A stretch of 44,035 bases of DNA from Bacteroidaceae bacterium (GTDB lineage Bacteria; Bacteroidota; Bacteroidia; Bacteroidales; Bacteroidaceae): assembly GCA_017647225.1 (NCBI GenBank), contig JAGCLA010000005.1, forward strand, positions 1 through 44,035. Reading direction: 5' to 3'. The translations under genes were made by a program, and so were the position numbers. Positions 26,187-43,330 of this stretch are shown one piece after another. The notes beneath the pieces were generated by a model. It was not told where the DNA came from. It ran no database searches and saw only the letters and a list, made by a program, of their open reading frames with translations. The stretch's first letter is position 1; the number at the start of each line of letters is the position of its first letter.

Positions 26187-29100
26187 TTACTTAACATACA
26201 CCTTCTTACCATTCACGATATAGAATCCCGGCTGGGTGATTCCTTCCAATTTACGGCCCTGCAGGTCGTAGATTGATTCCACAATTTCTCTCTCACATTC
26301 CACTTCCTCAATATCCATTGCTCCTTCTGCGTCAAAGCGGAGAGAATAATTTGCTACCTGCTGTGCCACTTCTCTATTAATCACAAGATATGCACGGTTC
26401 GCAGAGTTCATCACATAACCGCCCTTGTCGTGGTTGTAGCTGCCGTCTACCTGAACTCGTTCTCCATTGGCATCATAGTTCTCATACATCCAATACATCT
26501 TGACAACATCGTTCTTTGCCTGCATCATGTAAATATCCCTTGCGTCACCGGCTTCAACAACACCTTTGCATAATGTACCCTCAAGCATATTGTTTTCTAT
26601 TGCAGCTGCAGTTTCGGTGGTATATACAAATTCGAGCTGCAGAGCTTCGGCCAAATCCTCTTTACTCTTCAGGATTACCGGAGTATTTGCAGGAAGCACA
26701 TTTTCTATCTCCACCATATTTATAGACACGCCATCAAGACCGGCAGCATAACTTGCTGTTATTTCCTCCGGTATTTTGGCATTGAATCCGAGCATCAATG
26801 TACCATAACCCAAAGCACTCATTGTGTATGGATAATATATTGATTCAACCTCCGCTTCAGACAGTTCTTCGATATACCATGCCGAAGCACTTCCCAAGCC
26901 ACCTGTATAACCGACAAGTTTACTTCCTGAATCTTGAGCATGTAATGGATAACCTCCGGTTGAATTAAGTTTCAACTCGCCTGTAACCTCATCAAGAATT
27001 TCAACAGTATATTTTAATGGTCTTGCACTAAGATTAATCTGAGTTGCCCACTTGGCAGTATCCAGATAACATTGAGTCTGAAGGTTCTTTATATAATAGC
27101 CGTTGTCATTCACTTCGAATTGCCATATATATTCTGCAAGACATTCATTTTCCGGATTAGCAAAATGAGGTTTATTGTCCGAATTGACATATGCAAATTT
27201 GCCATTGCTATAAGCATTAGTGTTGGCAGACTTGATTCTATACAAACCTTTTTCGTTCGGCATCTTGCGGTCAAGTGAATTATAAGCATTGCTCAAAGTC
27301 TCACGCATAGCATCATATTCGCTATCCTCGGCTGTTTTATTATCAAGCAAGGCTGTAGCATTGTTGTAAGCCTCGTTATATGGGGCAACAGAACTTTCAG
27401 AGTATTGGCCAATATTCACACCTCCGACCTTCAAGCCACCACAATCAACATGCTCATTGTAAAGCGCAAAGTATGCATCAGAGAGACTGTAATCGGTTTC
27501 ATCAAGAATAAATTGGAAATTAGAGCCATCATCTGAAGGAGAATTATCTGACGACCAGAAGCCCATTTTGTGACTTGCTCCACCATGATTACTGAAATAT
27601 GTTCCCTTGCCTTCGGGCTGTATATTCCAAAAACCTGTTTTAGTAACGTCTGTTATAGTTTCGTTTCCGGCTTCGTCAGTTACGACATTGGTCTTGAATG
27701 TTATATACCAATTTATCTTATAGCTGTCGTCACTACCGTCAACACCCTTAACTTTGCTATTACCGTCATTAAGATCATTGCTACCAAGTTTCAAAGTCGT
27801 GTTCTGTGCGCCATTATTGCTATATGGCATAATGAGGATATCATCAAACACTTCATCATTTGTACCGCTCATAAAGTACCAAGCCTGATTACGGTTAAGT
27901 TCGTCATCGGCAACAGCAACCATTCCCGAAGCCTCATCGTATTGCAATACAGAAGTTGCACTACGCTTGATTCTTATCTTATAGAGCACCGGCTTTTCTG
28001 CATTTCTTGTCAGTTTGACAGGTATTTTATTCAACAACAAAGCATTTTCAAGAGACTCTTTTGCTGCTTGCAAGTTTGCAACGACTTCATTGTATTCACT
28101 CTCAAGCATATAACGTCCGTTTTCCTCTATTGCAACATTCTTCTCAATATACGCTTCTATTATCGGCTCTGAATACAAGTTAAATGCATACTCATTTCCT
28201 ATAACGACTGTCGGATAAGTTTCAAACCCAAACTCACTGAGAACAAAGAATTTATGAGACACATCATTATATGTTGTCGTTGAATGGTTCTGAGTGTCTG
28301 TAACCATAAGGCGGACATAACGGTAAGCCTCTTCCATATCAATAAGCGGTGATGTATATTTCACGGCATCGCCGTCTGTAGGCAAGCCCGTGAGTGTTCT
28401 CACATTCACCCATTCGCCATCAATCGTATTGCAAGCCTGCACCACAATTGTCGCTGGGTCGTTATTGCTATTGCTATTACGTCCTACATAATTGAACTTG
28501 AATGCTTTTACAGTATTACCTTCACCCATATCGATACGGATATAGTGGTCCAAATCGTCGTCCTGTGCATTACCGCCATAAGTTGTATGCAAGTGAGTGC
28601 CTGTATCACCATCGAACAAAGCTTCAACTCCGCGTTTATCGTCGGCACCGGCACTTGAATTCGTTGAGTTGTCAGCATTACAATATACATTATCGGCACT
28701 CAAAACAGGAGTATTGACATCGGTCACATTCGCAAGACTCGCGATAAGAGTTTCTGTTTCAGCAATCAATGCTTCAAGCCCATCGCGGTTTGACCAATCG
28801 GCATCAACAACAGTTTGCACAGCTGTGTAGCAGCTGTTCAACATATCATATACCGCATTATATTTTTCATTGACGGTATAGTGCCCCACTACATATTCAG
28901 CCGACTGCAACGCAAGATACAATGCTATATAATCGATACCGCCAGCGTTTGCATAATAGCTACTCAATGTCCTATCGGCCAAAACATACAGGTTAAAGTC
29001 GGACATATGGAATGAGTTGACACCCGATTTGACAGCAAAACGTATGTAACGATATAAGCCGCCAAGGTCAAGTGGATTTTCCATAGCCCACTGTTCTCCG

Positions 29101-32100
29101 GCACCGGTTGCAAGACCGCTGTCAATAACGGTTATTTCGGTGAAATTGGTACCATTGTTACTTCCAAGCACCTTTATTGCTGTAGGACGTTCGGTTTCAT
29201 ATCCGCTATTACGGGTTGCATAATCAAACTGCAGTTCATCTATAGCAATGGCAATACCCATATCAACCTCGACAAAATGAGTATAATCGGCTATGGTGCC
29301 ACCCCAAGATGAGCCTACGTAAGTTTCTATATTCGCACTACCGTCATCATTCTTATCCAGGATATTGGCAACATTTCCATCACCAACACCCGAGAGTCTT
29401 ACATAGAACGGTGCGTTGACATCTGATGCCTGCAAAGATATTGCACACTTACCGGCAGTGTCTTCTGTAATTTCCTCCATGAGGCCTTCTCTTATTTCTG
29501 CTATAAGAGTAGAAAGAGCGGTGCGGTCACCTGAATAATCGGCATTTACAATACCCTGTGTTTCATTGTAACAATCATTCAACAAGGAGAGCGCAGTTGT
29601 GTATTGTTCCTCAGTAAGATAGAAACGCTCTACAACATTCTCTGCCTGCTGCAAAGCAAATGACAACTCTGCAATTCCAAGCCCTGTAACTGATGCATAA
29701 TAGTCGTCGCCTTTAGCAACAATCGCTTCAATCAAAGCGTTGGCGTTGGTAATTGCAGTATTCAATTCGCTCTTGTCAATGGTTGTTGCCACATTGGCAT
29801 TCTTTATCAGCAACAAAGCATCATATTGCGCCTGCAAAGCCGTATTTGCATCATCAACCTCGGTTTGCGAATTGCTGTTATCGAGTTTGTCTTTTGCTAC
29901 ATCAATTGCTGTTTTTGCCGTTGCGAGCATTTCATTTGTCAAGTCCGATGGTTTATAATCGGCATTTACATTGCCTTCACTATCAGCCATTTCGTTATAT
30001 AATGCCAGAGCGTTATTGTATAAATTCCGTAATGCATTCTTATCAACAGCAACCTGTGCCACAGCATTTTCCAATTCTGTCTTGGCCTCTTCCATATCGA
30101 CAATCTGCGCATCAAGCATATCAACGCTCAATACTTTATTGTCAGCTCCACACATTGTTTTTGAACCCTCCTTAACAAAGTAGGTAGAAAGCAACATATC
30201 TTCTGTTACAATTTCGGAATAAGCATCATTAACAGCAACGTTATCTGTCACTTTACTGAAACCGAATTCAGAAATTACAAAATATGTCGCAGAGTTGCCA
30301 CCTTCGACACCGGTAACCTTGAAACGTATATAACGGTATGCCGCTGGTGAAGAAATCACACCCGACTCAAACCGTTCAGCCACACCACCATTTGTATTCT
30401 GAGCGGGATTAGGCAAACCGTCAGCTGCACGTGTCAATGTTCTGATAGCCACATATTCTCCGTCAGGTTCATTGCAACCTTCAACCACAATAGTAGTCGG
30501 ACAGTTGTTACCGTTATCGCGGGTTGCATAGTTGAACTTGAAGTTCTTTACCGTTGAGTTTTCGCCCAAATCGACACGCAGATAGTGAGGAGTGGCAACA
30601 GTACCACTATAGTCGGTATGCATAAATGTTTCAACATTGTCATCGGTCAATTTGTCAACATAAGCCGCACTATAATCATCATTGTTCTGTGCTGTGTAAG
30701 GTGCATTACAATAGAGGTTGTCTGTTGTAAGCGTCATTGATTCAACCTTTGACAGTTCTATAGTTCCTACTACAGCTAACAATGTTTCTGTTTCTGCAAC
30801 AAGAGTAGAGAGTGTATCCTTACGGGCATTGATTATTGCATTATATTCTTCAAGCAATGCATTGTATGCATCCTGCAATGTTTTTTTCATAGTTTCAATA
30901 CTCTCCGTTGATGGCGAAGCTGTGTCAACAAGCGAACGGGCCGACATATATGCTTCGTGAGCAGCATCGACTTTAGTGTCAGTTATCTTACCTTTATAAT
31001 AATCACGCAATGTCGATTCAAAAGAAGTTACAGAGTATATATCAAATTCTGCCATGTGCCAATATCCACGATTTGCGTGTACATTGAAACGCAGATATTT
31101 GTATGGAGCCGAAACCATTGCTTCAGTAGATTCCCAATCCGTACCGGCACTCTGTGGCAATTTTTCAACAGAGCCTATAAATTTATAATTGACACCATCG
31201 TGGCTACCATAGACATCAATACTCTTTGGAAAATCACTTGACACACCGCTACGTGTAGTATAACCGAACATAAAACGCTCCAACCCATCAGCATTACCAA
31301 AGTTTACGGTAAGATAGTGCGAACCGGATACAGGTTGCGAAGACCAATCGGAATGGAGGAAGGTATTTTTCTTACCATCAACAAGATTATCAATTTTAGA
31401 GCCCTCGCGTGAGTCTGGTGCATTACATGACAAATAGCAATTACCCGAGGAGGCAGTTGTCTGCAATGTTATTGAATCGCCTCTTGTATAGTTTATTGTG
31501 GCAACCTTATCAACAAGAGCCTTGGTTTTTGTCATAAGTGCCTGCAACTCTGCAAGGTCTTCGACAGTATTGTCTGGTTCAACAGCTGTAAGATACCAAC
31601 CGGAAGCCGCGGCATCAAGTCCCCAACCAATAATTTTGCCGTAGCCGCCTTGCGCATGGATATTTCGGCCATTATCGAGTGGGTCACGTCTGATTGCCCA
31701 AACTCCGTCAGAAATCTCCTGAAGCCTATAAACAGCTGTTGCTGAAGGTTCTGAAGTTGTTGTCAACTGGGCATTGTTAGCTACTTCCGCACAATAATAT
31801 CCACCCATGTTATAGATATTATACACACCACCCGTCGCTGTTTCTTTGAATTGCCAGCGTGATGTATTGGCCTCTGTACCGACACTTGCTGAGTAACATA
31901 CCACAGGAGTTTCTCCACCGGTGTTTACATACATTACATTGCCGGCATAATGTGCATTGGTTATTATGTATGTAAGGTTTGAATTAAACGGAATCTTCGC
32001 ATCGTTGTCGGCAAGGACTTTCTGATATTCGGCATAGAGCATTTCATATGCACCCTCATAACCGACACCACTTTCATAAACTTCTTCTGCCATCTGAACA

Positions 32101-34979
32101 GCTTCGACAAGACCAGACACAGATGCAGCCTTATAAAAACCAACCCTTGTATAGGTGTTATCTACCTTATCAGTGATAGCCTTTGCATCATTAATCAACA
32201 TTGCAAGAATATCACGCTTGATAACAACAAGATCAACCTCAGCCTCTTTAGTTTCGCTTTTATCATCGACAGCGACAATTTCGGCTTTTCCCGACACCAA
32301 AGCATGCAAAGCCTCCTCGCTCAATTCAAAGGTCGATTTGTTGCTGAAAGACATTATCTCACCATTCTCATTGAGAATCAAGAAACCGACACCACCTTCG
32401 CCACCACTCATTGTAACAGAGCCGTCACTGCCAAGTGTTGCAGTATAGGCTGTTGTAATATCGACATCACCATCTATAAAATCGTTTACAGAACCGAACT
32501 CAGCTGTAGGATTATTATCCCATAAACTTCGTTTCGTAGTGCCGTCGTGTCTAAGTGTAGTTTCTGCCGTACCATCATTGATAAACAACACTGCAAGATT
32601 TTGAGGATATCCCTTGTCCTTTACTTCTTTAATTGCAGCATCAATCTGTTCCTGTGTAATATTGTATGTAGCATTGCTGTAGTCACCCACAAGGCGGTTG
32701 TCCATAATTTCGAAGAAACCGTGTGCACGGAAGAACTCGGTCAAATCTTCGCCAGCTGCATTACATGCATGCTGATAGAAACGTAGCAGAGATGTTTCAC
32801 CGCTTATCTGTCCGCCATTTATAAGTGGTTCCTGACGGCAAAGTTCAAAAAGACGAGGCCAGAACTGTGTATTATTACCTGCAAGGTGATAGTAGAGCCA
32901 CAAACGATAGTACAAATGAGTGATTGCCCAGATATTATTTGTATAAAGATCGTTTCCTTTGGTATTGAAAGCCGCAAGAACACTCTCCAAAGAGCCCTCG
33001 CTACCATTTACACGTGATGTACCCATACCCATATACCAGACAGCGACGTTCGAGAAGAAATTGTTGGTAACCTCGGTTTGGCCATTCAGATTGAACACCG
33101 CTTGATGCTGGTGACCTATCTCATGAGCAGGTCCCCATGTCGGTCCGGCCTCGTTGGCTATTTTACCAATTATACTCGGCATTGTATTATAATGATAGTT
33201 ACATACACGCCAGCCACCACTCATATAACCGCTTGGAGCACCGACACCGCAACCATGATGATTGAAGTATTCGCTATAGTCAAGTCCCTGACAGAAGTCG
33301 ATATAACCATCATAGTTGTATATTTCGGCAGGAGTTCCTTCAGCAGTCCAACGTGGATAGAGTTCATTCATCTTGTCCATCGTTGATTTGCTCACAAGAC
33401 CCATACTTGCAAGCTCCGAATACATAATTCTATCCCATGCCTCAAGCATTATATTGATTTTACCATTGTCGGAACTTAGTCCCATACCCGGATAATAGGT
33501 ATCGCTATAGTTACCGAAGCTGTTACCGCTACCGCTATAGCAGTTAGGAGTTTCTTGAACAGAAATATTATCAAGATGATACAACAATCCCTTTTCCATG
33601 ACACTGTCCTCATTGGCCTGGTCTCCCAGAGGAAACAATAATGTCTGACGATGACCGAGCAATGGAAAATCGCGGTTAGGAGCATCTGTTCCGTTCAAAG
33701 GAGCGCGTACCTTATAGTAATCCCAATCTTCGTCGTTATCCACTTCGCCCCAAAGATTCTCTGTTCCCGAATCAGATGCGCGGAAGTCACCGATAGCATT
33801 ATAATAACCATTGATATGACCACCCTCGATATGTATTTTCAAAGGAGCAAACTCACTTAATTTATGTGGGAACTTATCGGCCAGTGTCTCACCGTCCTCG
33901 TCATACGTATGCACCAAGTAATTTATCCACAAGACGCAGCCATCGGCTGTATAAGGAACGATGTTCAAACCTTCATGAAGATGGGTATAAGCTTCATTCG
34001 TATAATACCCGGTAGCTCCAAGACCTGACTGATGAGTGACCAACAGTTCTGCACCTTCAGCAATCTCGCCTTCAACCATGATATATACAGATTCTCCATT
34101 ATTGGCATAGATACCTGTCGGATTATCCATATTACAGTGTGCATTTATACGCAAATAGCTTGTAATTTCACTTTCAATACTATAAGGTTCGTACATCTGT
34201 ACGCGAAATTTCTTGGCATACTCGCTGTCCCAACCCTCTTTTTCGCTGATAGCATTGGCTTCGTCCCAATTATCGTCACGCACTTTCTTGACCATATTCT
34301 TAAGAACTGCAGGCAATGCCTGATAATTGGCATCAAGCAACAATTGCTCATCGGTAATATTGGTATATGCACCTTTGAGTTGAGTACAAGCTTTATCTTC
34401 AAAGATCAGTTCCAACTTCTCTCCTATATTTACTTCATTAGGAAATCTAATTGCAATATCGTCCAAAAGCCTTTCAATATCATCTATTGTGTAATCAACC
34501 TCTGTAACAGTCCATTGTGTTCCACCGGAGCCACTACCCCAACCCTGAATGTTGGTTTGTGAATCATTACCCAAGTGCATATAGCCATTATCGTTGGAAG
34601 AGACAGAAGCACTACGGATTGTATTGTTTGTTCCGCCGGCAACAATGTATTCAAACTTGTTTGAATTGTCTGTACATTTTTCGGTCAAACCCCATGTATT
34701 CTGTGCGGTTTGAGAAAGGTAATAACCGTTGTACATGTTGCGGAAGATGTAACTTTCACCATCTTTTGAAACAAGCCATTGCTGCTTGATGTCATCACTG
34801 TTTGTTTCAGTAGCCTGTACTGCAGTAATTGTACCCTCTATAGCCGTTATTGCACGACTTGTAAAATGAGCATTCCGAAAGTGGTAGATTTTCCCTACCT
34901 CGAGAGTTGTTTGTGCCCATGTTGTCATACTTAACAGCAGAAACGCTGTAAGCAACAAGGTTTTAGATAATTTCTTCAT
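26187..34979 (-). CDS. Giant secreted M60-like (enhancin-type) metalloprotease with lectin-like modules
   Basis: Encodes 2930 residues. A signal peptide (about 1-22) leads to a trefoil/ricin-like module (about 25-165). The peptidase M60-like part follows, with HEIGHQHQ (H619, E620, H623) and the downstream Glu E636, fitting HExxH(8-28)E; zinc ligands and catalytic Glu are present. A second trefoil-like module is at about 1000-1145. Four F5/8 type C (galactose-binding-like) modules lie at about 1164-1316, 1410-1576, 1843-1999 and 2086-2254, separated by helical FIVAR-like spacers. Further trefoil-like stretches follow. The last 40 residues (IYDLQGRKLEG, GFYIVNGKKVYVK) resemble a type IX secretion sorting tail. 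M60-like enzymes of gut Bacteroides cut O-glycosylated mucin-type proteins, so an extracellular glycoprotein target is likely. Confidence 0.92.
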   Translation of the reverse strand: MKKLSKTLLLTAFLLLSMTTWAQTTLEVGKIYHFRNAHFTSRAITAIEGTITAVQATETNSDDIKQQWLVSKDGESYIFRNMYNGYYLSQTAQNTWGLTEKCTDNSNKFEYIVAGGTNNTIRSASVSSNDNGYMHLGNDSQTNIQGWGSGSGGTQWTVTEVDYTIDDIERLLDDIAIRFPNEVNIGEKLELIFEDKACTQLKGAYTNITDEQLLLDANYQALPAVLKNMVKKVRDDNWDEANAISEKEGWDSEYAKKFRVQMYEPYSIESEITSYLRINAHCNMDNPTGIYANNGESVYIMVEGEIAEGAELLVTHQSGLGATGYYTNEAYTHLHEGLNIVPYTADGCVLWINYLVHTYDEDGETLADKFPHKLSEFAPLKIHIEGGHINGYYNAIGDFRASDSGTENLWGEVDNDEDWDYYKVRAPLNGTDAPNRDFPLLGHRQTLLFPLGDQANEDSVMEKGLLYHLDNISVQETPNCYSGSGNSFGNYSDTYYPGMGLSSDNGKINIMLEAWDRIMYSELASMGLVSKSTMDKMNELYPRWTAEGTPAEIYNYDGYIDFCQGLDYSEYFNHHGCGVGAPSGYMSGGWRVCNYHYNTMPSIIGKIANEAGPTWGPAHEIGHQHQAVFNLNGQTEVTNNFFSNVAVWYMGMGTSRVNGSEGSLESVLAAFNTKGNDLYTNNIWAITHLYYRLWLYYHLAGNNTQFWPRLFELCRQEPLINGGQISGETSLLRFYQHACNAAGEDLTEFFRAHGFFEIMDNRLVGDYSNATYNITQEQIDAAIKEVKDKGYPQNLAVLFINDGTAETTLRHDGTTKRSLWDNNPTAEFGSVNDFIDGDVDITTAYTATLGSDGSVTMSGGEGGVGFLILNENGEIMSFSNKSTFELSEEALHALVSGKAEIVAVDDKSETKEAEVDLVVIKRDILAMLINDAKAITDKVDNTYTRVGFYKAASVSGLVEAVQMAEEVYESGVGYEGAYEMLYAEYQKVLADNDAKIPFNSNLTYIITNAHYAGNVMYVNTGGETPVVCYSASVGTEANTSRWQFKETATGGVYNIYNMGGYYCAEVANNAQLTTTSEPSATAVYRLQEISDGVWAIRRDPLDNGRNIHAQGGYGKIIGWGLDAAASGWYLTAVEPDNTVEDLAELQALMTKTKALVDKVATINYTRGDSITLQTTASSGNCYLSCNAPDSREGSKIDNLVDGKKNTFLHSDWSSQPVSGSHYLTVNFGNADGLERFMFGYTTRSGVSSDFPKSIDVYGSHDGVNYKFIGSVEKLPQSAGTDWESTEAMVSAPYKYLRFNVHANRGYWHMAEFDIYSVTSFESTLRDYYKGKITDTKVDAAHEAYMSARSLVDTASPSTESIETMKKTLQDAYNALLEEYNAIINARKDTLSTLVAETETLLAVVGTIELSKVESMTLTTDNLYCNAPYTAQNNDDYSAAYVDKLTDDNVETFMHTDYSGTVATPHYLRVDLGENSTVKNFKFNYATRDNGNNCPTTIVVEGCNEPDGEYVAIRTLTRAADGLPNPAQNTNGGVAERFESGVISSPAAYRYIRFKVTGVEGGNSATYFVISEFGFSKVTDNVAVNDAYSEIVTEDMLLSTYFVKEGSKTMCGADNKVLSVDMLDAQIVDMEEAKTELENAVAQVAVDKNALRNLYNNALALYNEMADSEGNVNADYKPSDLTNEMLATAKTAIDVAKDKLDNSNSQTEVDDANTALQAQYDALLLIKNANVATTIDKSELNTAITNANALIEAIVAKGDDYYASVTGLGIAELSFALQQAENVVERFYLTEEQYTTALSLLNDCYNETQGIVNADYSGDRTALSTLIAEIREGLMEEITEDTAGKCAISLQASDVNAPFYVRLSGVGDGNVANILDKNDDGSANIETYVGSSWGGTIADYTHFVEVDMGIAIAIDELQFDYATRNSGYETERPTAIKVLGSNNGTNFTEITVIDSGLATGAGEQWAMENPLDLGGLYRYIRFAVKSGVNSFHMSDFNLYVLADRTLSSYYANAGGIDYIALYLALQSAEYVVGHYTVNEKYNAVYDMLNSCYTAVQTVVDADWSNRDGLEALIAETETLIASLANVTDVNTPVLSADNVYCNADNSTNSSAGADDKRGVEALFDGDTGTHLHTTYGGNAQDDDLDHYIRIDMGEGNTVKAFKFNYVGRNSNSNNDPATIVVQACNTIDGEWVNVRTLTGLPTDGDAVKYTSPLIDMEEAYRYVRLMVTDTQNHSTTTYNDVSHKFFVLSEFGFETYPTVVIGNEYAFNLYSEPIIEAYIEKNVAIEENGRYMLESEYNEVVANLQAAKESLENALLLNKIPVKLTRNAEKPVLYKIRIKRSATSVLQYDEASGMVAVADDELNRNQAWYFMSGTNDEVFDDILIMPYSNNGAQNTTLKLGSNDLNDGNSKVKGVDGSDDSYKINWYITFKTNVVTDEAGNETITDVTKTGFWNIQPEGKGTYFSNHGGASHKMGFWSSDNSPSDDGSNFQFILDETDYSLSDAYFALYNEHVDCGGLKVGGVNIGQYSESSVAPYNEAYNNATALLDNKTAEDSEYDAMRETLSNAYNSLDRKMPNEKGLYRIKSANTNAYSNGKFAYVNSDNKPHFANPENECLAEYIWQFEVNDNGYYIKNLQTQCYLDTAKWATQINLSARPLKYTVEILDEVTGELKLNSTGGYPLHAQDSGSKLVGYTGGLGSASAWYIEELSEAEVESIYYPYTMSALGYGTLMLGFNAKIPEEITASYAAGLDGVSINMVEIENVLPANTPVILKSKEDLAEALQLEFVYTTETAAAIENNMLEGTLCKGVVEAGDARDIYMMQAKNDVVKMYWMYENYDANGERVQVDGSYNHDKGGYVMNSANRAYLVINREVAQQVANYSLRFDAEGAMDIEEVECEREIVESIYDLQGRKLEGITQPGFYIVNGKKVYVK

Positions 34980-37362: not shown

Positions 37363-38631
37363 TTAGCCTCCGAAGTTATCGTACATGATAGACTTCTCCT
37401 CAACGCCAAGGTCAGTAAGCATGTTGACAACAGCCTTAGACATCGGGCCAGGACCACACATGTAGTATTCGATATCCTCAGGAGCCTCGTGATCCTTAAG
37501 ATATGTCTCGTAAATAACCTGGTGTACAAAACCTGCGGTATATTTAACACCTGCTGCATCAGCTGCAGGATCCGGACGGTCAAGCGCAAGGTGGAATGTA
37601 AAGTTGGGGAATTCCTTCTCAAGCTGCAAGAAGTCCTCGAGATAGAACACTTCGTTCAACGCACGCGCACCATAGAAATATGTCATTACGCGGTCTGTTG
37701 TCTTCAATGTCTTTGTCATGTGCATAATCTGAGCACGGAGAGGAGCCATACCGGCACCACCACCTACCCACATCATCTCCTTCTTTGAGTCGAAAATAGG
37801 GTGGAAATCACCATAAGGGCCACTCATGATAACCTTGTCACCTGGTTTCAAAGTAAAGATGTATGAAGATGCAATACCACAAGGTACGTCCATAAAGCCT
37901 GAACGGTCAGCCTTGAAAGGAGGTGTTGCGATACGTACTGTAAGCATGATACGGTCACCCTCGGCAGGATAGTTGGCCATAGAGTAAGCACGGATAGTCT
38001 CTTCGGTATTATTGCACTTCAAGCCGAGCAAACCGAACTTCTCCCATGCCGGCAGATACTCGTCACCGATAAGAGCCTTATCGATATCCTTGTCATAGGT
38101 CATATCGTATGCAGGAATCTTGATCTGTGCGTATGAACCCGGAACAAAGTCCATGTGCTCACCCGGAGGCAATGCAACAATAAACTCCTTGATGAAAGTA
38201 GCAACGTTCTTGTTTGAAATAACCTCGCACTCCCACTCCTTAACGCCCATAACAGACTCGGGCACCTTAATCTCCATATCGTTCTTACACTTAACCTGAC
38301 AGCCCAAGCGCCAATGTGCCTGCTGCTCCTTACGTGTAAAGTGACTTGTCTCAGAAGGAAGGATTTCGCCACCACCTTCAACAACCTGTAGCTTGCACTG
38401 ACCACAAGAGCCCTTACCACCACAAGCTGAAGGCAAGAAGATTCCATTCTCGGCAAGTGTACCCAAAAGAGCACCACCGGCAGCAACCTCTACCTCTTTC
38501 TCACCATTAATCTTAACCTTGATATTTCCACCTGGAAGCAAGAAACGCTTTGCCAACAGAAGGATAATAACCAACAAAAGGATTATTACAAGGAAGACAC
38601 CTATACTCGCTAATATCAACTGTGTATTCAT
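37363..38631 (-). CDS. nqrF: Na+-NQR subunit F (NADH-oxidising)
   Basis: Encodes 422 residues. It is the entry subunit of the Na+-pumping NADH:quinone reductase: it oxidises NADH in the cytoplasm and passes electrons through FAD and a 2Fe-2S cluster. An N-terminal membrane helix (about 5-27) precedes a ferredoxin domain with cluster ligands C70, C76, C79 and C111. The FAD site is RAYSMANYPAE, and the nucleotide site is GGGAGMAPLRAQI with a late YYMCGPGPM. All are intact. Last gene of the nqrABCDEF operon, 12 nt after nqrE. Confidence 0.98.
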   Translation of the reverse strand: MNTQLILASIGVFLVIILLLVIILLLAKRFLLPGGNIKVKINGEKEVEVAAGGALLGTLAENGIFLPSACGGKGSCGQCKLQVVEGGGEILPSETSHFTRKEQQAHWRLGCQVKCKNDMEIKVPESVMGVKEWECEVISNKNVATFIKEFIVALPPGEHMDFVPGSYAQIKIPAYDMTYDKDIDKALIGDEYLPAWEKFGLLGLKCNNTEETIRAYSMANYPAEGDRIMLTVRIATPPFKADRSGFMDVPCGIASSYIFTLKPGDKVIMSGPYGDFHPIFDSKKEMMWVGGGAGMAPLRAQIMHMTKTLKTTDRVMTYFYGARALNEVFYLEDFLQLEKEFPNFTFHLALDRPDPAADAAGVKYTAGFVHQVIYETYLKDHEAPEDIEYYMCGPGPMSKAVVNMLTDLGVEEKSIMYDNFGG

Positions 38632-38643
38632 ATCCTTACATTA

Positions 38644-39267
38644 TTACATTTTAATACCTGAGAAGCACATGAACGCCATAGCCATAAGACCTACTGTGAT
38701 AAAGGCAATACCAAGACCACGCAAAGGCTTTGGAACGTTGCAATACTCCATTTTCTCACGGATTGCAGCAAAAAGCACAATAGCAACCATCCAACCGAAA
38801 CCTGAACCGATAGCAAAAGCTACAGAATCGGCAAAACATGTGATGGCCTGTGAATTGTCTGCAGGAAGACCTATTCTCTGCTGCATGAAGAGTGAACCAC
38901 CCATGATAGCACAGTTCACAGCAATAAGAGGAAGGAATATACCCAACTGATTATAGAGTGCCGGAGCAAAACGCTCAACAACCATTTCGACAAGCTGAAC
39001 AATACCTGCAATAACCGCAATGAAAAGGATAAACGCAAGGAATGTCAAATCAACTCCCAAAATACCGTCTGCAGCAAGAACTTTTGTCTGCAACAAATAG
39101 TTTACAGGAAGTGTGATAACCTGCACAAATACAACGGCAATACCCAATCCGACAGCTGTCTTTACGCTCTTAGATACAGCCAAGAACGAACACATACCTA
39201 AGAAAAAGGCAAATATCATATTGTCCACGAAAACCGAACGGACAAGCAAACTAATAAAATGTTCCAT
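38644..39267 (-). CDS. nqrE: Na+-NQR subunit E
   Basis: Encodes 207 residues with about six membrane helices. With NqrD it forms the inner-membrane core pair that holds an iron centre between half-helices; a conserved Cys is seen in [12 protein letters not shown] near the N-terminus and another in AVNCAIMGG. It is homologous to RnfA. It lies between nqrD (29 nt upstream) and nqrF (12 nt downstream). Length and motifs are standard. Confidence 0.97.
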
Positions 39268-39296: not shown

Positions 39297-39923
39297 TTAT
39301 TCTTGCAAACTCTTGTCTTTTGCTCTCTGGAACCACACGATGCATGCGATAAGAATGAACGCAGCAGGTGTCATAAGCATAAGACCATTATTCAAATATC
39401 CGGCATCGTAAACACTCTGTGGTATTATCTGGATACCGAGAAGTGCACCTGAGCCAAAGAACTCACGGAACAATGCCACAACAACCAATATCATTGCATA
39501 ACCAATACCGTTACCGATACCATCAAGGAACGAAGGCCATGGTTTGTTAGCCATTGCAAATGCCTCAAGACGTCCCATAAGGATACAGTTGGTAATGATA
39601 AGACCGATATAAACCGACAACTGAACGCTGACATCGTATGCAAAAGCCTTAAGAACCTCACTTACCAATGTTACCAACGCAGCTACAACCACAAGCTGTA
39701 CAATAATACGGATACGCATTGGGATTGTATTACGGATAAGAGAGATGATAACGTTAGCCATTGCCACGATAATGGTTACTGAAAGACCCATCACAATAGC
39801 AGGCTCCAATTTACTTGTAACAGCCAATGCCGAACAGATACCGAGCACCTGGACTGTTACAGGATTTTCCTTAAATAGAGGAGTGTTGAGCGCCTCTTTA
39901 TTTTTCTTAGAAAAAAGTCCCAT
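39297..39923 (-). CDS. nqrD: Na+-NQR subunit D
   Basis: Encodes 208 residues with about six membrane helices, homologous to RnfE. Conserved Cys residues occur in LGICSALAVTSKLEPA and LIITNCILMGRLEAFA, matching the iron-coordinating positions shared with NqrE. It lies 17 nt after nqrC in the operon. Nothing unusual. Confidence 0.97.
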   Translation of the reverse strand: MGLFSKKNKEALNTPLFKENPVTVQVLGICSALAVTSKLEPAIVMGLSVTIIVAMANVIISLIRNTIPMRIRIIVQLVVVAALVTLVSEVLKAFAYDVSVQLSVYIGLIITNCILMGRLEAFAMANKPWPSFLDGIGNGIGYAMILVVVALFREFFGSGALLGIQIIPQSVYDAGYLNNGLMLMTPAAFILIACIVWFQRAKDKSLQE

Positions 39924-39940: not shown

Positions 39941-40753
39941 TTATTTTGATTCAACATTTGCATTTGACATAAGATATGCCTTATAAGGAGCAATCTTGCT
40001 TTTAAGCATCGCGTCAACTCCATTACAAGTAATAGTTGCACCAGAGATCGCATTTACCTCAACAGCGTCGTTCTGTACTTTCTTTACAATAGAAAGCGCA
40101 ACCTCACTATTCTCAATTACCTTTTTGCCAGGGAAACGTGACTGGAATTTATCACTTGCAATCTCGGCACCGAGACCCGGTGTCTCACTTGCATGTGAAA
40201 AATATACTCCATAGATAGTGTTGCAGTCGTCGTTAAGTGCGAGATAGCCCCAGATACCGCCCCACAAACCGTTACCGGTCATAGGAATGATATATTTTGT
40301 TTCACCGTTGACCTCTGCTATATAAAGAGGAAGATTTGAATCCGCTACTGCATCGTTAGCAACTTCAAAGCCACCGTTATCCTTAACGACTTCACCTGAA
40401 GCATTGATAACAGGATCGCTTTTGATTACATTATCATATTCTGCTGCTGCATCAGGAACATTCTTGATGTTAAGAGAAGCCAAAATCTGCTTTTTCTTAT
40501 CAAGACGGATATTGTCATCCTGACGCGGTTTCAATAGTGATGAAACTCCTGCCAAAAGGAATGCAACGATAACCACAACTACAGCCGAATAGATAATGGC
40601 ATAAATATCGCTGTTTGTATCAAGGCCCTTCTTTGCCTCTTTCACAGCCTCGAACTCTGAAGCACCTACCTTGCATACAGGGCATACGCTTGGAGCTTCT
40701 TTGCCTTCGTGTACGTATCCGCACACTTTGCATACATATTTCTTTGCTGCCAT
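39941..40753 (-). CDS. nqrC: Na+-NQR subunit C fused to an N-terminal rubredoxin-like domain
   Basis: Encodes 270 residues. Residues 5-37 are a rubredoxin-like iron domain of the rubrerythrin type with two CxxC pairs: C8/C11 (CKVCGYVHEG) and C24/C27 (CPVCKVGASEF). A linker (38-46) joins it to an ordinary NqrC: membrane helix 51-72, periplasmic FMN domain, and FMN-attachment motif SGAT with acceptor T240. The NqrC part begins at about D45-TNSD, equivalent to the usual MNTNS start, and there is no internal ATG there, so the two parts are one protein. By NQR topology the rubredoxin domain would face the cytoplasm, near NqrF. It lies 7 nt after nqrB. Its role in electron transfer is inferred. Confidence 0.95.
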   Translation of the reverse strand: MAAKKYVCKVCGYVHEGKEAPSVCPVCKVGASEFEAVKEAKKGLDTNSDIYAIIYSAVVVVIVAFLLAGVSSLLKPRQDDNIRLDKKKQILASLNIKNVPDAAAEYDNVIKSDPVINASGEVVKDNGGFEVANDAVADSNLPLYIAEVNGETKYIIPMTGNGLWGGIWGYLALNDDCNTIYGVYFSHASETPGLGAEIASDKFQSRFPGKKVIENSEVALSIVKKVQNDAVEVNAISGATITCNGVDAMLKSKIAPYKAYLMSNANVESK

Positions 40754-40760
40754 ATCTTTA

Positions 40761-41939
40761 TTAGTTCTTTTTAGTTAAACGTTTTGCACGTGCATTCACA
40801 TTTGACTGCACTACACAATAATCGATAAATGGAGCTGTCACATTCATAAGAAGAATAGCAAGCATCATACCTTCGGGATAACCCGGGTTAAGAACGCGGA
40901 TAAGTATTGTCATGGCACCGATACCGAAACCATAGATATACTTGCCGACTTCGGTACGAGCCGATGTAACAGGGTCTGTTGCCATGAACACTGCACCAAA
41001 GCAGAAACCGCCAAGGAGAAGATGATGCCAGAATGGAATGCTCTCAGGCAACTTGTCGCCGAATACGAAAAGCATTACAACACCACCGACAAAGACGCTG
41101 AGCATTGTCTTCCAGCTTGCAACACCTGTCCAAAGGAGAAGGATTGCACCAAGAGCAATTGCAACAACACTTGTTTCACCTATTGAACCGGGCATAAAAC
41201 CGAACAACATATCACAAACGCCAAGTTCTGCACCGGCTGCACCAACAGGAGCAACACCATTTGCTACGTGCTGGAGTGCAGTTGCACATGTGTAACCGTC
41301 AACAGTTGCACCCAATCCACATATAGACTCTGTTGCCACCCAAACTGTATCACCAGAAATAACAGATGGATAAGCAAAGAAGATAAATGCACGAGCAATG
41401 AGAGCTACGTTCACGATGTTCATACCTGTACCGCCAAAGACCTCTTTTGCAAAAATTACAGCAAAAGCTGTTGCCAAAGCGAGTATCCACAATGGACAGC
41501 CAACAGGAACAATCATCGGGATAAGAATACCTGATACGAGGAATCCTTCATGTATCTCTTCGTTCTTCCACTGAGCAACGGTAAACTCGATACCAAGACC
41601 AACAATGTAAGAAACAGCAATCTTTGGCAACATTACCAAAAGACCATAGAGGAACATGCTGAACCATGTTGTTGTCTCAACTGTACCTGCAGCAATAGCG
41701 TTCTGAAGACCGATATTATACATACCGACCAACATTGCAGGCATAAGAGCTATAACCACAAGCGACATGATGCGCTTACTGTCAATGGCATCATGAATAT
41801 TCACACCACTCTTCGCTGTATCGTTGGGAACGAACAAGAATGTTTCGAAACCATCGAACAAAGAACGGAAAGCATGCAACTTACCACCCTCTTCGAAGTT
41901 TGGTTTAATTTTATCTATATAATTTCTCAAAAATTTCAT
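40761..41939 (-). CDS. nqrB: Na+-NQR subunit B
   Basis: Encodes 392 residues with about ten membrane helices, the main Na+-translocating and riboflavin/FMN-binding subunit. The covalent FMN site is DGYTCAT (214-220) with acceptor T220; the family motif is usually DGxSGAT, so Thr-Cys replaces Ser-Gly. The N-terminal soluble segment (about 1-55) is typical. It follows nqrA after about 41 bp and precedes nqrC by 7 nt. Confidence 0.98.
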   Translation of the reverse strand: MKFLRNYIDKIKPNFEEGGKLHAFRSLFDGFETFLFVPNDTAKSGVNIHDAIDSKRIMSLVVIALMPAMLVGMYNIGLQNAIAAGTVETTTWFSMFLYGLLVMLPKIAVSYIVGLGIEFTVAQWKNEEIHEGFLVSGILIPMIVPVGCPLWILALATAFAVIFAKEVFGGTGMNIVNVALIARAFIFFAYPSVISGDTVWVATESICGLGATVDGYTCATALQHVANGVAPVGAAGAELGVCDMLFGFMPGSIGETSVVAIALGAILLLWTGVASWKTMLSVFVGGVVMLFVFGDKLPESIPFWHHLLLGGFCFGAVFMATDPVTSARTEVGKYIYGFGIGAMTILIRVLNPGYPEGMMLAILLMNVTAPFIDYCVVQSNVNARAKRLTKKN

Positions 41940-41980: not shown

Positions 41981-43330
41981 TTAGCACATCTCGGCACGGA
42001 GTTTGTCCAAGCCTTCGCGAACTATGCGCTGCAACTCAAGTTTTGATGAGTCAACAAACTCGCAAAGTGCAAAGTCTTCGGGTGCAACCTCGTAGATACC
42101 GAGCTGCTCCATCTTGTCGATATTGCCTGTTATTATAGCCTTGATAAGATATTCGGGATAGATATCCATTGGGAATACCTTGTCGTACTCGTTTGACATG
42201 ATCATGTGGCGTTCACCACCCTTGATACGAGCGTCGATTGTATATTTGCGTTTTGGGAACAACCAGCTGAAATAGCTACGGCTTGTGCTGTACATTCCAA
42301 AACGAGGAGCTGCCCAACCAAGGATATCAGCATCGTTGAGGATTTCAGGGATAACTGTTATCTCTGTTGAGAATGCGCCGAGGAAACCATCAGCTGCAGT
42401 CTTTTTACCTGTCAAAACGTTACCGTCGATTATACGGAGTTCATTCTTGTCCTCAAGACGACCCTCAACAAGTGTTGAAATTTGAGCACCAAGAACAACC
42501 TTGCTGTATGAAGGATTCTTTACCTCGCTACCGGCAAGAGCAACAGTACGTGTGAAATCAACTTTACCCTTATTGAACAGGCGACCGATGAAGATTACCT
42601 CTTCGGCACCGATTGTCCAAACAATTTCGCCCTTGTTTACAGGAGCTGTCTTGTTGATCTGAACACCGACATTACCGGCAGGGTGAGGACCCTTGAAAAT
42701 TGTTGTTGTTACATTCTTTGCAACAAGCAAAGCTGTCGATTTCTGACAAGCGCAGATGCCCAAGTGTACAGGAGCGATGCGAGACAAAGCGTCAAGACCT
42801 GTCTGAAAATCTTCCTCGTTACCCTTGAGAGCTATCTCAAAGTTTACAGCAAGAGGCTTTGAATCGAATGCAGATACATAAATGGCACGAGGTGTATCGC
42901 TTGGATTTGCGATAACATCATAAGGTCTCTGACGCATGAATGCGAACAGACCTGCCTTCAAAAGGTCAGCCTTAACCTCATCCGATGACAACGAAAGAAC
43001 ATCTTTCGCCTTGTACTCTACAGACTCAAACTTGCCGTCTGACTCTACAACTACGCTAAGAACGCGTCTTCTCTCACCGCGGTTCACCGCTACAACCTTT
43101 CCGCTCACCGGCGAAACAAATTGCATTTCAGGGTTAGCTTTGTCAACAAACAAAGGATCGCCGGCTTTCACTGCATCCTCAGGTTTTACAACAACCTTAG
43201 GAGTTACACGTGTAAAATCAGCTGGCATCAAAGCATAAAGCTTAGCTGCCTCAACTGATGTCATTTCAGCAACCGGAGCACCTTTTAGGTTGATATTCAA
43301 CCCCTTAGAAATTTTTACGACTCTGTGCAT
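41981..43330 (-). CDS. nqrA: Na+-NQR subunit A
   Basis: Encodes 449 residues, normal length. This is the cytoplasmic subunit bound to NqrB, homologous to RnfC but without its iron-sulfur clusters. It starts RVVKISKGLNINLKGAP, then has VEDAVKAGDPLF-like (KPEDAVKAGDPLFVDK) and SPVSGKVVAVNRGERR segments typical of the family. First gene of the operon; a -7-like box lies 34 bp upstream. Confidence 0.98.
   Translation of the reverse strand: MHRVVKISKGLNINLKGAPVAEMTSVEAAKLYALMPADFTRVTPKVVVKPEDAVKAGDPLFVDKANPEMQFVSPVSGKVVAVNRGERRRVLSVVVESDGKFESVEYKAKDVLSLSSDEVKADLLKAGLFAFMRQRPYDVIANPSDTPRAIYVSAFDSKPLAVNFEIALKGNEEDFQTGLDALSRIAPVHLGICACQKSTALLVAKNVTTTIFKGPHPAGNVGVQINKTAPVNKGEIVWTIGAEEVIFIGRLFNKGKVDFTRTVALAGSEVKNPSYSKVVLGAQISTLVEGRLEDKNELRIIDGNVLTGKKTAADGFLGAFSTEITVIPEILNDADILGWAAPRFGMYSTSRSYFSWLFPKRKYTIDARIKGGERHMIMSNEYDKVFPMDIYPEYLIKAIITGNIDKMEQLGIYEVAPEDFALCEFVDSSKLELQRIVREGLDKLRAEMC

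Follow-up and report, generated by a model that had tools for sequence, protein, structure and literature searches.

Rubredoxin Domain of NqrC and Its Operon

The window analyzed here is a stretch of 44,035 nucleotides from a Bacteroidaceae bacterium, and the nqrC gene found in it raises the question of what a rubredoxin may be doing at the beginning of a subunit of a membrane pump, the Na+-NQR. An earlier note on this DNA had claimed that about 42 extra N-terminal residues of the rubrerythrin-type rubredoxin, with the pairs C8/C11 and C24/C27, are joined to a normal NqrC. Pfam and NCBIfam searches confirmed this. The gene is a single unbroken frame of 270 aa with an ATG start at 40753, and its parts are the following:

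39941..40753, minus strand: nqrC with N-terminal rubredoxin domain, 270 aa (frame, Pfam and NCBIfam)
40649..40738, minus strand: short-type rubredoxin (RUBY_RBDX, residues 6–35; CxxC-12 aa-CxxC; Pfam, 51.2 bits, and fold match)
40721..40732, minus strand: first presumed iron-ligand pair, C8 and C11 (invariant in 18/18 aligned fused proteins)
40673..40684, minus strand: second presumed iron-ligand pair, C24 and C27 (invariant in 18/18 aligned fused proteins)
40610..40645, minus strand: linker, residues 37–48 (ends at the stretch where unfused NqrC starts; pLDDT below 50 at 40–46)
40520..40609, minus strand: single transmembrane helix, residues 49–78 (predicted helix 49–93; membrane placement by homology, PMC9325719)
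39998..40270, minus strand: FMN-binding domain of NqrC (Pfam and match to 3lwx; SGATIT from residue 237, presumed FMN threonine 240)

The Pfam profile PF21349 (RUBY_RBDX) matched residues 6–35 with an E-value of 8.2e-14 (51.2 bits, cut-off 26.5), and the 12 residues between C11 and C24 agree with the RUBY_RBDX pattern of two CxxC pairs about 12 residues apart. At the other end of the protein, FMN_bind matched residues 162–252 (60.8 bits, cut-off 22), and the NCBIfam nqrC model TIGR01938 was passed with 206.4 bits against a cut-off of 144. Other NqrC models remained below their own cut-offs, among them NF003750 (294.9 bits, cut-off 352), whose alignment starts only at residue 45, right after the extra part. 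The flavinylation motif SGAT(I/L)T is present as SGATIT, and attachment of FMN is predicted from it. Besides C8, C11, C24 and C27, there are two cysteines in the NqrC body, C177 and C243.

The AlphaFold model of the fused protein (mean pLDDT 83.8) consists of a rubredoxin, a linker with values below 50 at residues 40–46, a long helix from residue 49 and the FMN domain. Foldseek aligned the NqrC body with the Parabacteroides NqrC 3lwx (TM 0.88 by target length) and the head with rubredoxin domains of rubrerythrin and disulfide-reductase (4tpu, 1b71, 9fj2, and 1ryt), with rmsd of 1.0–1.5 Å over 36–38 columns and modest E-values of 0.008–0.03. In the model the head thus has the rubredoxin fold, and it would presumably bind iron.

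The fused gene sits inside a complete nqrABCDEF operon with the genes in order. The other subunits are:

41981..43330, minus strand: nqrA (frame and NCBIfam)
40761..41939, minus strand: nqrB, with the flavinylation-like motif DGYTCAT (frame, NCBIfam and motif)
39297..39923, minus strand: nqrD, with C30 and C113 as presumed ligands of the NqrDE cluster (frame, NCBIfam and residue positions)
38644..39267, minus strand: nqrE, with C26 and C119 as presumed ligands of the NqrDE cluster (frame, NCBIfam and residue positions)
37363..38631, minus strand: nqrF, with C70, C76, C79 and C111 as presumed [2Fe-2S] ligands, and FAD and NADH domains (frame, Pfam, NCBIfam and residue positions)

These ligands were equated by position with those given for Prevotella bryantii, namely C30/C113 in NqrD, C26/C120 in NqrE and C69/C75/C78/C110 in NqrF (PMC10739449). 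As read from the sequences, the cofactor motifs of the pump are intact, with the expected ligands in NqrD, NqrE and NqrF and flavinylation-like motifs in NqrB and NqrC. The NqrC of the window is therefore like other members of the Na+-NQR family (TIGR01938) in FMN_bind, SGATIT, the single membrane helix, the operon order from A to F and the ligands of NqrD, NqrE and NqrF, and unlike them in the extra residues forming the rubredoxin; the NqrC of P. bryantii, with 210 aa (PMC6560451), is taken as unfused on account of that length. Elsewhere in the window, at 26187–34979 of the minus strand, there is a frame of 2930 aa which, as judged by eye, contains repeated stretches and has a start resembling a signal sequence.

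Authenticity of the Fusion and Start of Translation

The earlier note would have been overturned by an artefact joining two genes or by a start of translation that lies only inside the NqrC portion. The source is a draft assembly of 56 contigs and 88% completeness, in which an error of assembly or gene calling could be imagined. However, among 44 genomes of the same genus the joined protein is present in 33, an NqrC match without the domain in 5 (beginning at residues 39–42, one of the five being partial), and no NqrC was found in the other 6. The same fusion is carried by genomes from 11 of the 30 genera of the family sample described below and by the best 80 of 441 named loci, the carriers among these including the isolates Phocaeicola coprophilus An818 and Paraprevotella clara YIT 11840. 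Independent genomes have thus already refuted the artefact, whose residual probability is negligible.

Concerning the start, no ATG exists in codons 2–90 of nqrC, where only GTG or TTG occur (codons 10, 37, 60, 67, and 74), and 30/30 aligned sequences of the genus share Met1, Lys5 and all four cysteines. In addition, the changes in the rubredoxin domain are mostly at silent sites, with a median dN of 0.131 and a median dS of 1.016 in the genus sequences; the FMN core gave 0.227 (dN) and 1.580 (dS), and the helix 0.109 (dN) and 1.459 (dS). The ratios of these medians are about 0.13, 0.14, and 0.07, respectively, with dS near saturation; the median of pairwise pN/pS is undefined in the case of the domain, as certain pairs lack any silent difference. 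The missing ATG codons, the invariant residues and the mainly silent changes make a start within the NqrC part unlikely, and the fused protein appears to be translated at full length from its ATG.

Distribution and Modularity of the Domain

The search for NqrC homologs with an N-terminal rubredoxin across Bacteroidales, which the earlier note had proposed as a check, indicated that the domain is a recurrent module and not a one-off. In a family sample of 151 genomes, NqrC was matched in 134, 48 of them fused and 86 counted as unfused, and 17 had no NqrC match. The criterion for fusion was a match starting at residue 5 or earlier. Reading letter by letter was added for 30 of the 48 proteins so classed, and reading of the 86 unfused starts showed 85 to be free of CxxC pairs ahead of the helix, the remaining one (G062) being interrupted by a run of N. 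In the order sample (247 genomes, NqrC match in 204), the fused proteins among the matches listed belong to the own genome and to four others (G412, G203, G226, and G289) from three other families. In the phylum sample (247 genomes, match in 50), only the match of the own genome begins in the rubredoxin part, and a few of the others begin so deep in the protein that the domain would not show. In these two samples the fusion state was read solely from the position at which the match starts, save for the loci that were fetched, and the matches listed for the order sample end before the weakest, so that fused proteins among these would have escaped notice.

A scan of named sequences with the fused query gave 441 relatives, the best 80 of which all carry two CxxC pairs, as was to be expected because the query held them. 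The CxxCGY form is present in 70 of these 80 and a CxxCGQ/K variant in 10. Three variants that were tested pass the Pfam cut-off (33.7–38.1 bits), and their chemistry may differ from that of the CxxCGY form. One locus titled Clostridium sp. NALB_7961_31 (L084) has an nqr operon placed among Paraprevotella-like Bacteroidales operons, so that the title of this MAG looks wrong.

For the comparison of loci, 84 fused and 49 unfused ones were used after dropping the copy of the own window (L137). These 133 loci include near-duplicates: L139 equals L172, both being one place in genome G045, and L123, L124 and L138 are identical or almost identical to one another. The unfused NqrC proteins start, mostly within a few residues, at an NTNSNxYT-like stretch downstream of the linker of the fused ones. 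Since they start where the linker ends, the rubredoxin is, at the level of sequence, a clean N-terminal add-on. Across the 18 aligned fused proteins the domain is conserved, and the linker differs both in how long it is and in its residues. Tandem copies also occur, with three rubredoxins in the NqrC of L038 and two in that of L128. The clearest pair is formed by the sister operons L093 and L189, whose subunit identities fall from 99.1% in D and 98.6% in F through 97.7% in E, 97.2% in B and 94.9% in A to 91.6% in C (over 239 aa), the domain being present in L093 only.

On a FastTree tree of concatenated NqrB, NqrD, NqrE and NqrF (129 rows; 4 of the 133 loci lacked subunits and were omitted), 15 changes of state were counted, of which starred branches force no fewer than 14, against a mean of 38.6 when states were shuffled; this count pools gains, losses and operon transfers. 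Among the loci fetched, the operon of the unfused ones of the own genus (L157–L160) falls elsewhere in the tree than that of L057–L075, which suggests replacement of the nqr operon by transfer within one genus.

So many changes could mean that a captured rubredoxin start segment is merely tolerated and has little function, and neither a gene nor a residue was found to go robustly with the fusion (see below). Against this, the domain is under purifying selection much like that of the FMN core, weaker than that of the helix and measured with dS near saturation; its four cysteines are invariant in the 18 aligned proteins; and it is kept in 33 of the 38 NqrC-bearing genomes of the genus. Mere shuffling is thus very unlikely.

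Origin of the Rubredoxin Domain

The origin of the domain was studied by comparing 81 distinct NqrC segments with 15 N-terminal rubredoxins of reverse rubrerythrin and 8 C-terminal ones of rubrerythrin, the labels being set by motif. Five of these 8 come from rubrerythrins with a rubredoxin at both ends, and their 5 N-terminal segments were excluded from the identity count. All 81 NqrC segments were closer to the reverse rubrerythrin type, with identities of up to 85% over 33 residues. Judged by sequence identity, the closest relative of the NqrC rubredoxin is therefore the N-terminal rubredoxin of reverse rubrerythrin, in agreement with the link to oxygen or peroxide defense that had been suggested. 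A tree built on the 33 columns of the domain, with stars on 10 of its 106 branches, is poorly resolved and compatible with one origin as well as with several. Both proteins begin with a short-type CxxC-12-CxxC rubredoxin, but in reverse rubrerythrin it joins a diiron ferritin-like domain and here a membrane pump subunit.

Rubrerythrin frames of about 224–235 aa that carry one rubredoxin at each end were seen at six loci (L161–L166, in G001, G003, G029, G036, G034, and G014), that is, in five genomes of the genus with unfused NqrC and in one in which no NqrC was found. None was present among the matches listed for the 33 fused genomes of the genus. This frame is probably a clade marker.

Candidate Partners and Co-variation

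The own genome encodes reverse rubrerythrin, in its readable part, and rubrerythrin, and has matches to the families of superoxide reductase, free rubredoxin and ODP (flavodiiron-type) proteins. The readable part of the reverse rubrerythrin adjoins a Fur/PerR-like frame at locus L002, as judged by eye, and the rubrerythrin adjoins the superoxide reductase match at L004. An identical reverse rubrerythrin start of 141 aa ends two contigs (C25 and C30; L001 and L002) with different upstream neighbors, and this doubling is either a repeated gene, a strain mixture or a misassembly. No partner gene was recognized adjoining the nqr operon.

Gene co-occurrence was compared in the 134 NqrC-bearing genomes of the family sample, the 17 of 151 without NqrC match being excluded, and no gene tracked the fusion robustly among free rubredoxin, ODP, superoxide reductase, Rubredoxin_C and cytochrome bd. 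Rubredoxin_C (PF18267) was matched in 0/151 family genomes, the own included, against 4/14 in the control. There was thus nothing to contrast, and the fusion does not visibly replace a lost reductase of that kind. Compensation for a lost free rubredoxin was rejected as well (none found in 9/48 fused and 12/86 unfused genomes; Fisher p 0.47), and so were links to ODP flavodiiron proteins (no match in 5/48 and 3/86; Fisher p 0.13) and to superoxide reductase (no match in 14/48 and 17/86; Fisher p 0.29). Superoxide reductase is present in 9/9 fused genomes without free rubredoxin and in 7/12 such unfused ones. Cytochrome bd is present in 21/48 fused and 60/86 unfused genomes (p 0.005, uncorrected for kinship), but this is driven by two genera (0/8 and 0/7) and the trend is the opposite in genera g9 (6/6 vs. 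0/1) and g11 (6/6 vs. 1/2), so that this link was also discarded. In the drafts of genus g1, cytochrome bd subunit I was not found in 8/8 fused genomes and was present in G011, which has no NqrC match.

At the residue level, nothing in NqrA, NqrB, NqrD, NqrE or NqrF stood out as tracking the fusion in 12 independent pairs (2528 tests, best residue 6.3 for vs. 0.8 against), and consequently no co-adapted docking site is visible. Residue C251 of the NqrF of the window, in the motif VPCGIASSY, is present in 48% of the fused loci and in 3% of the unfused ones when kinship is left uncorrected; it is absent from the 25 strongest residues on independent pairs.

Possible Role of the Rubredoxin Head

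The earlier note had placed the iron site on the cytoplasmic face next to NqrF, and this placement follows by homology. In Vibrio cholerae the periplasmic FMN domain of NqrC is carried on one helix that touches helix 3 of NqrD and helix 1 of NqrF (PMC9325719), and by analogy the N-terminus of the fused NqrC should be cytoplasmic and near NqrF.

The reading that we favor, although we hold it as somewhat short of probable, is that the NqrC rubredoxin is a tethered, dispensable and non-pumping electron outlet leading from NADH through NqrF to enzymes of the rubrerythrin or Roo type. A one-electron head on a flexible cytoplasmic tether would receive NADH electrons at its FeCys4 center from the FAD and [2Fe-2S] of NqrF and would pass them on to free rubredoxin or to soluble rubredoxin-dependent enzymes, the candidate acceptors being reverse rubrerythrin, rubrerythrin, rubredoxin:oxygen oxidoreductase and superoxide reductase. 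The NQR could in this way double as an NADH:rubredoxin oxidoreductase once oxygen or peroxide enters. We infer the flow from NqrF, its direction and the partners. The variable linker joined to a conserved domain is as expected of a mobile carrier. Moreover, of the electrons that reach rubredoxin and Roo in Bacteroides thetaiotaomicron, NADH:rubredoxin oxidoreductase (NROR) is one source “but not the sole one” (PMC5210497). This calls for a further route in Bacteroidales, although the species studied may be one without the NqrC fusion. In Clostridioides difficile the electron donors of reverse rubrerythrins and FdpA are described as unknown (PMC7482061). In view of these reports, an NADH:rubredoxin outlet borne by the pump is plausible.

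Alternatively, the rubredoxin might be an assembly, iron-supply or stability device for the NQR, or an oxygen or redox sensor tuning the pump, without steady electron traffic. The add-on would lie near the NqrDE cluster side and the CxxCGQ/K variants could be zinc-type domains. The membrane-bound rubredoxin RubA, which has a role in photosystem II assembly, may be compared. The NqrM profile (PF04400) had no match in the own genome, but shows little because the control likewise gave 0/14 genomes. On the other hand, the unfused relative L189, with subunits 92–99% identical to those of L093, manages without the domain, and tandem copies suit a carrier better than a scaffold. The kinship with the rubredoxin domains of reverse rubrerythrin, which are redox-active in other species, also speaks against such a device, which we consider unlikely; a redox titration is mentioned in PMC7482061.

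The opposite direction was considered too, the rubredoxin being an electron inlet or in-line relay through which soluble donors or NqrF would feed the NqrDE cluster and hence the pump. The domain would be on the side where NqrF delivers electrons, and the long gaps between NQR cofactors are thought to be bridged by motion (PMC9325719). Nevertheless, the expected NqrF and NqrDE ligands are all present, the sister operon L189 has no such domain and no co-varying residue stands out. Typical rubredoxin potentials, near 0 mV, would in addition make donation to menaquinone unfavorable, and an inlet or relay is quite unlikely.

Returning to the electron outlet, a broader version of it is that swappable rubredoxin heads of one to three copies were acquired by the sodium pump several times and made it a switchable enzyme. 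It would act as an energy-conserving NADH:menaquinone reductase without oxygen and, once oxygen appears, as an NADH:rubredoxin reductase serving the removal of oxygen and peroxide, and so supply the rubredoxin-dependent defense of these anaerobes by a route other than NROR. As a whole this version is possible but doubtful.

Relation to Known Systems and Significance

The proposed reaction, from NADH via a flavin to rubredoxin, is that of NADH:rubredoxin oxidoreductase and rubredoxin. Here the flavoprotein would be NqrF with its [2Fe-2S] center and the rubredoxin is tethered to the pump, and as Rubredoxin_C (PF18267) was matched in none of the 151 family genomes, the fused NQR would at most work like that enzyme. 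RubA also is a rubredoxin tethered beside a membrane redox complex, but it is a separate protein with a role in photosystem II assembly. In FdpF of C. difficile a short-type rubredoxin is likewise fused into an electron chain with no need for a separate carrier (PMC7482061); FdpF is a soluble oxygen reductase and the NQR an ion pump. No title or abstract on an NqrC-rubredoxin fusion was found in the open-licence literature searched, and the word rubredoxin is absent from the main texts of the Prevotella NQR papers PMC6560451 and PMC10739449. Protein databases may well hold this architecture.

In Bacteroidales, which belong to the dominant anaerobes of the gut, the NQR is a main point of entry of NADH into respiration. 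The supply of NADH electrons to rubredoxin and Roo in these cells is only partly known, with NROR not being the sole source in B. thetaiotaomicron (PMC5210497), and a rubredoxin built into the NQR is a concrete candidate for such a route in the species carrying the fusion. The natural pair with and without the domain (L093/L189) and the isolates of Paraprevotella clara and Phocaeicola coprophilus offer material in which the fusion is carried or contrasted. If the proposal is true, the electron-input arm of the pump would also feed the enzymes of oxygen and peroxide defense in anaerobic gut Bacteroidales.
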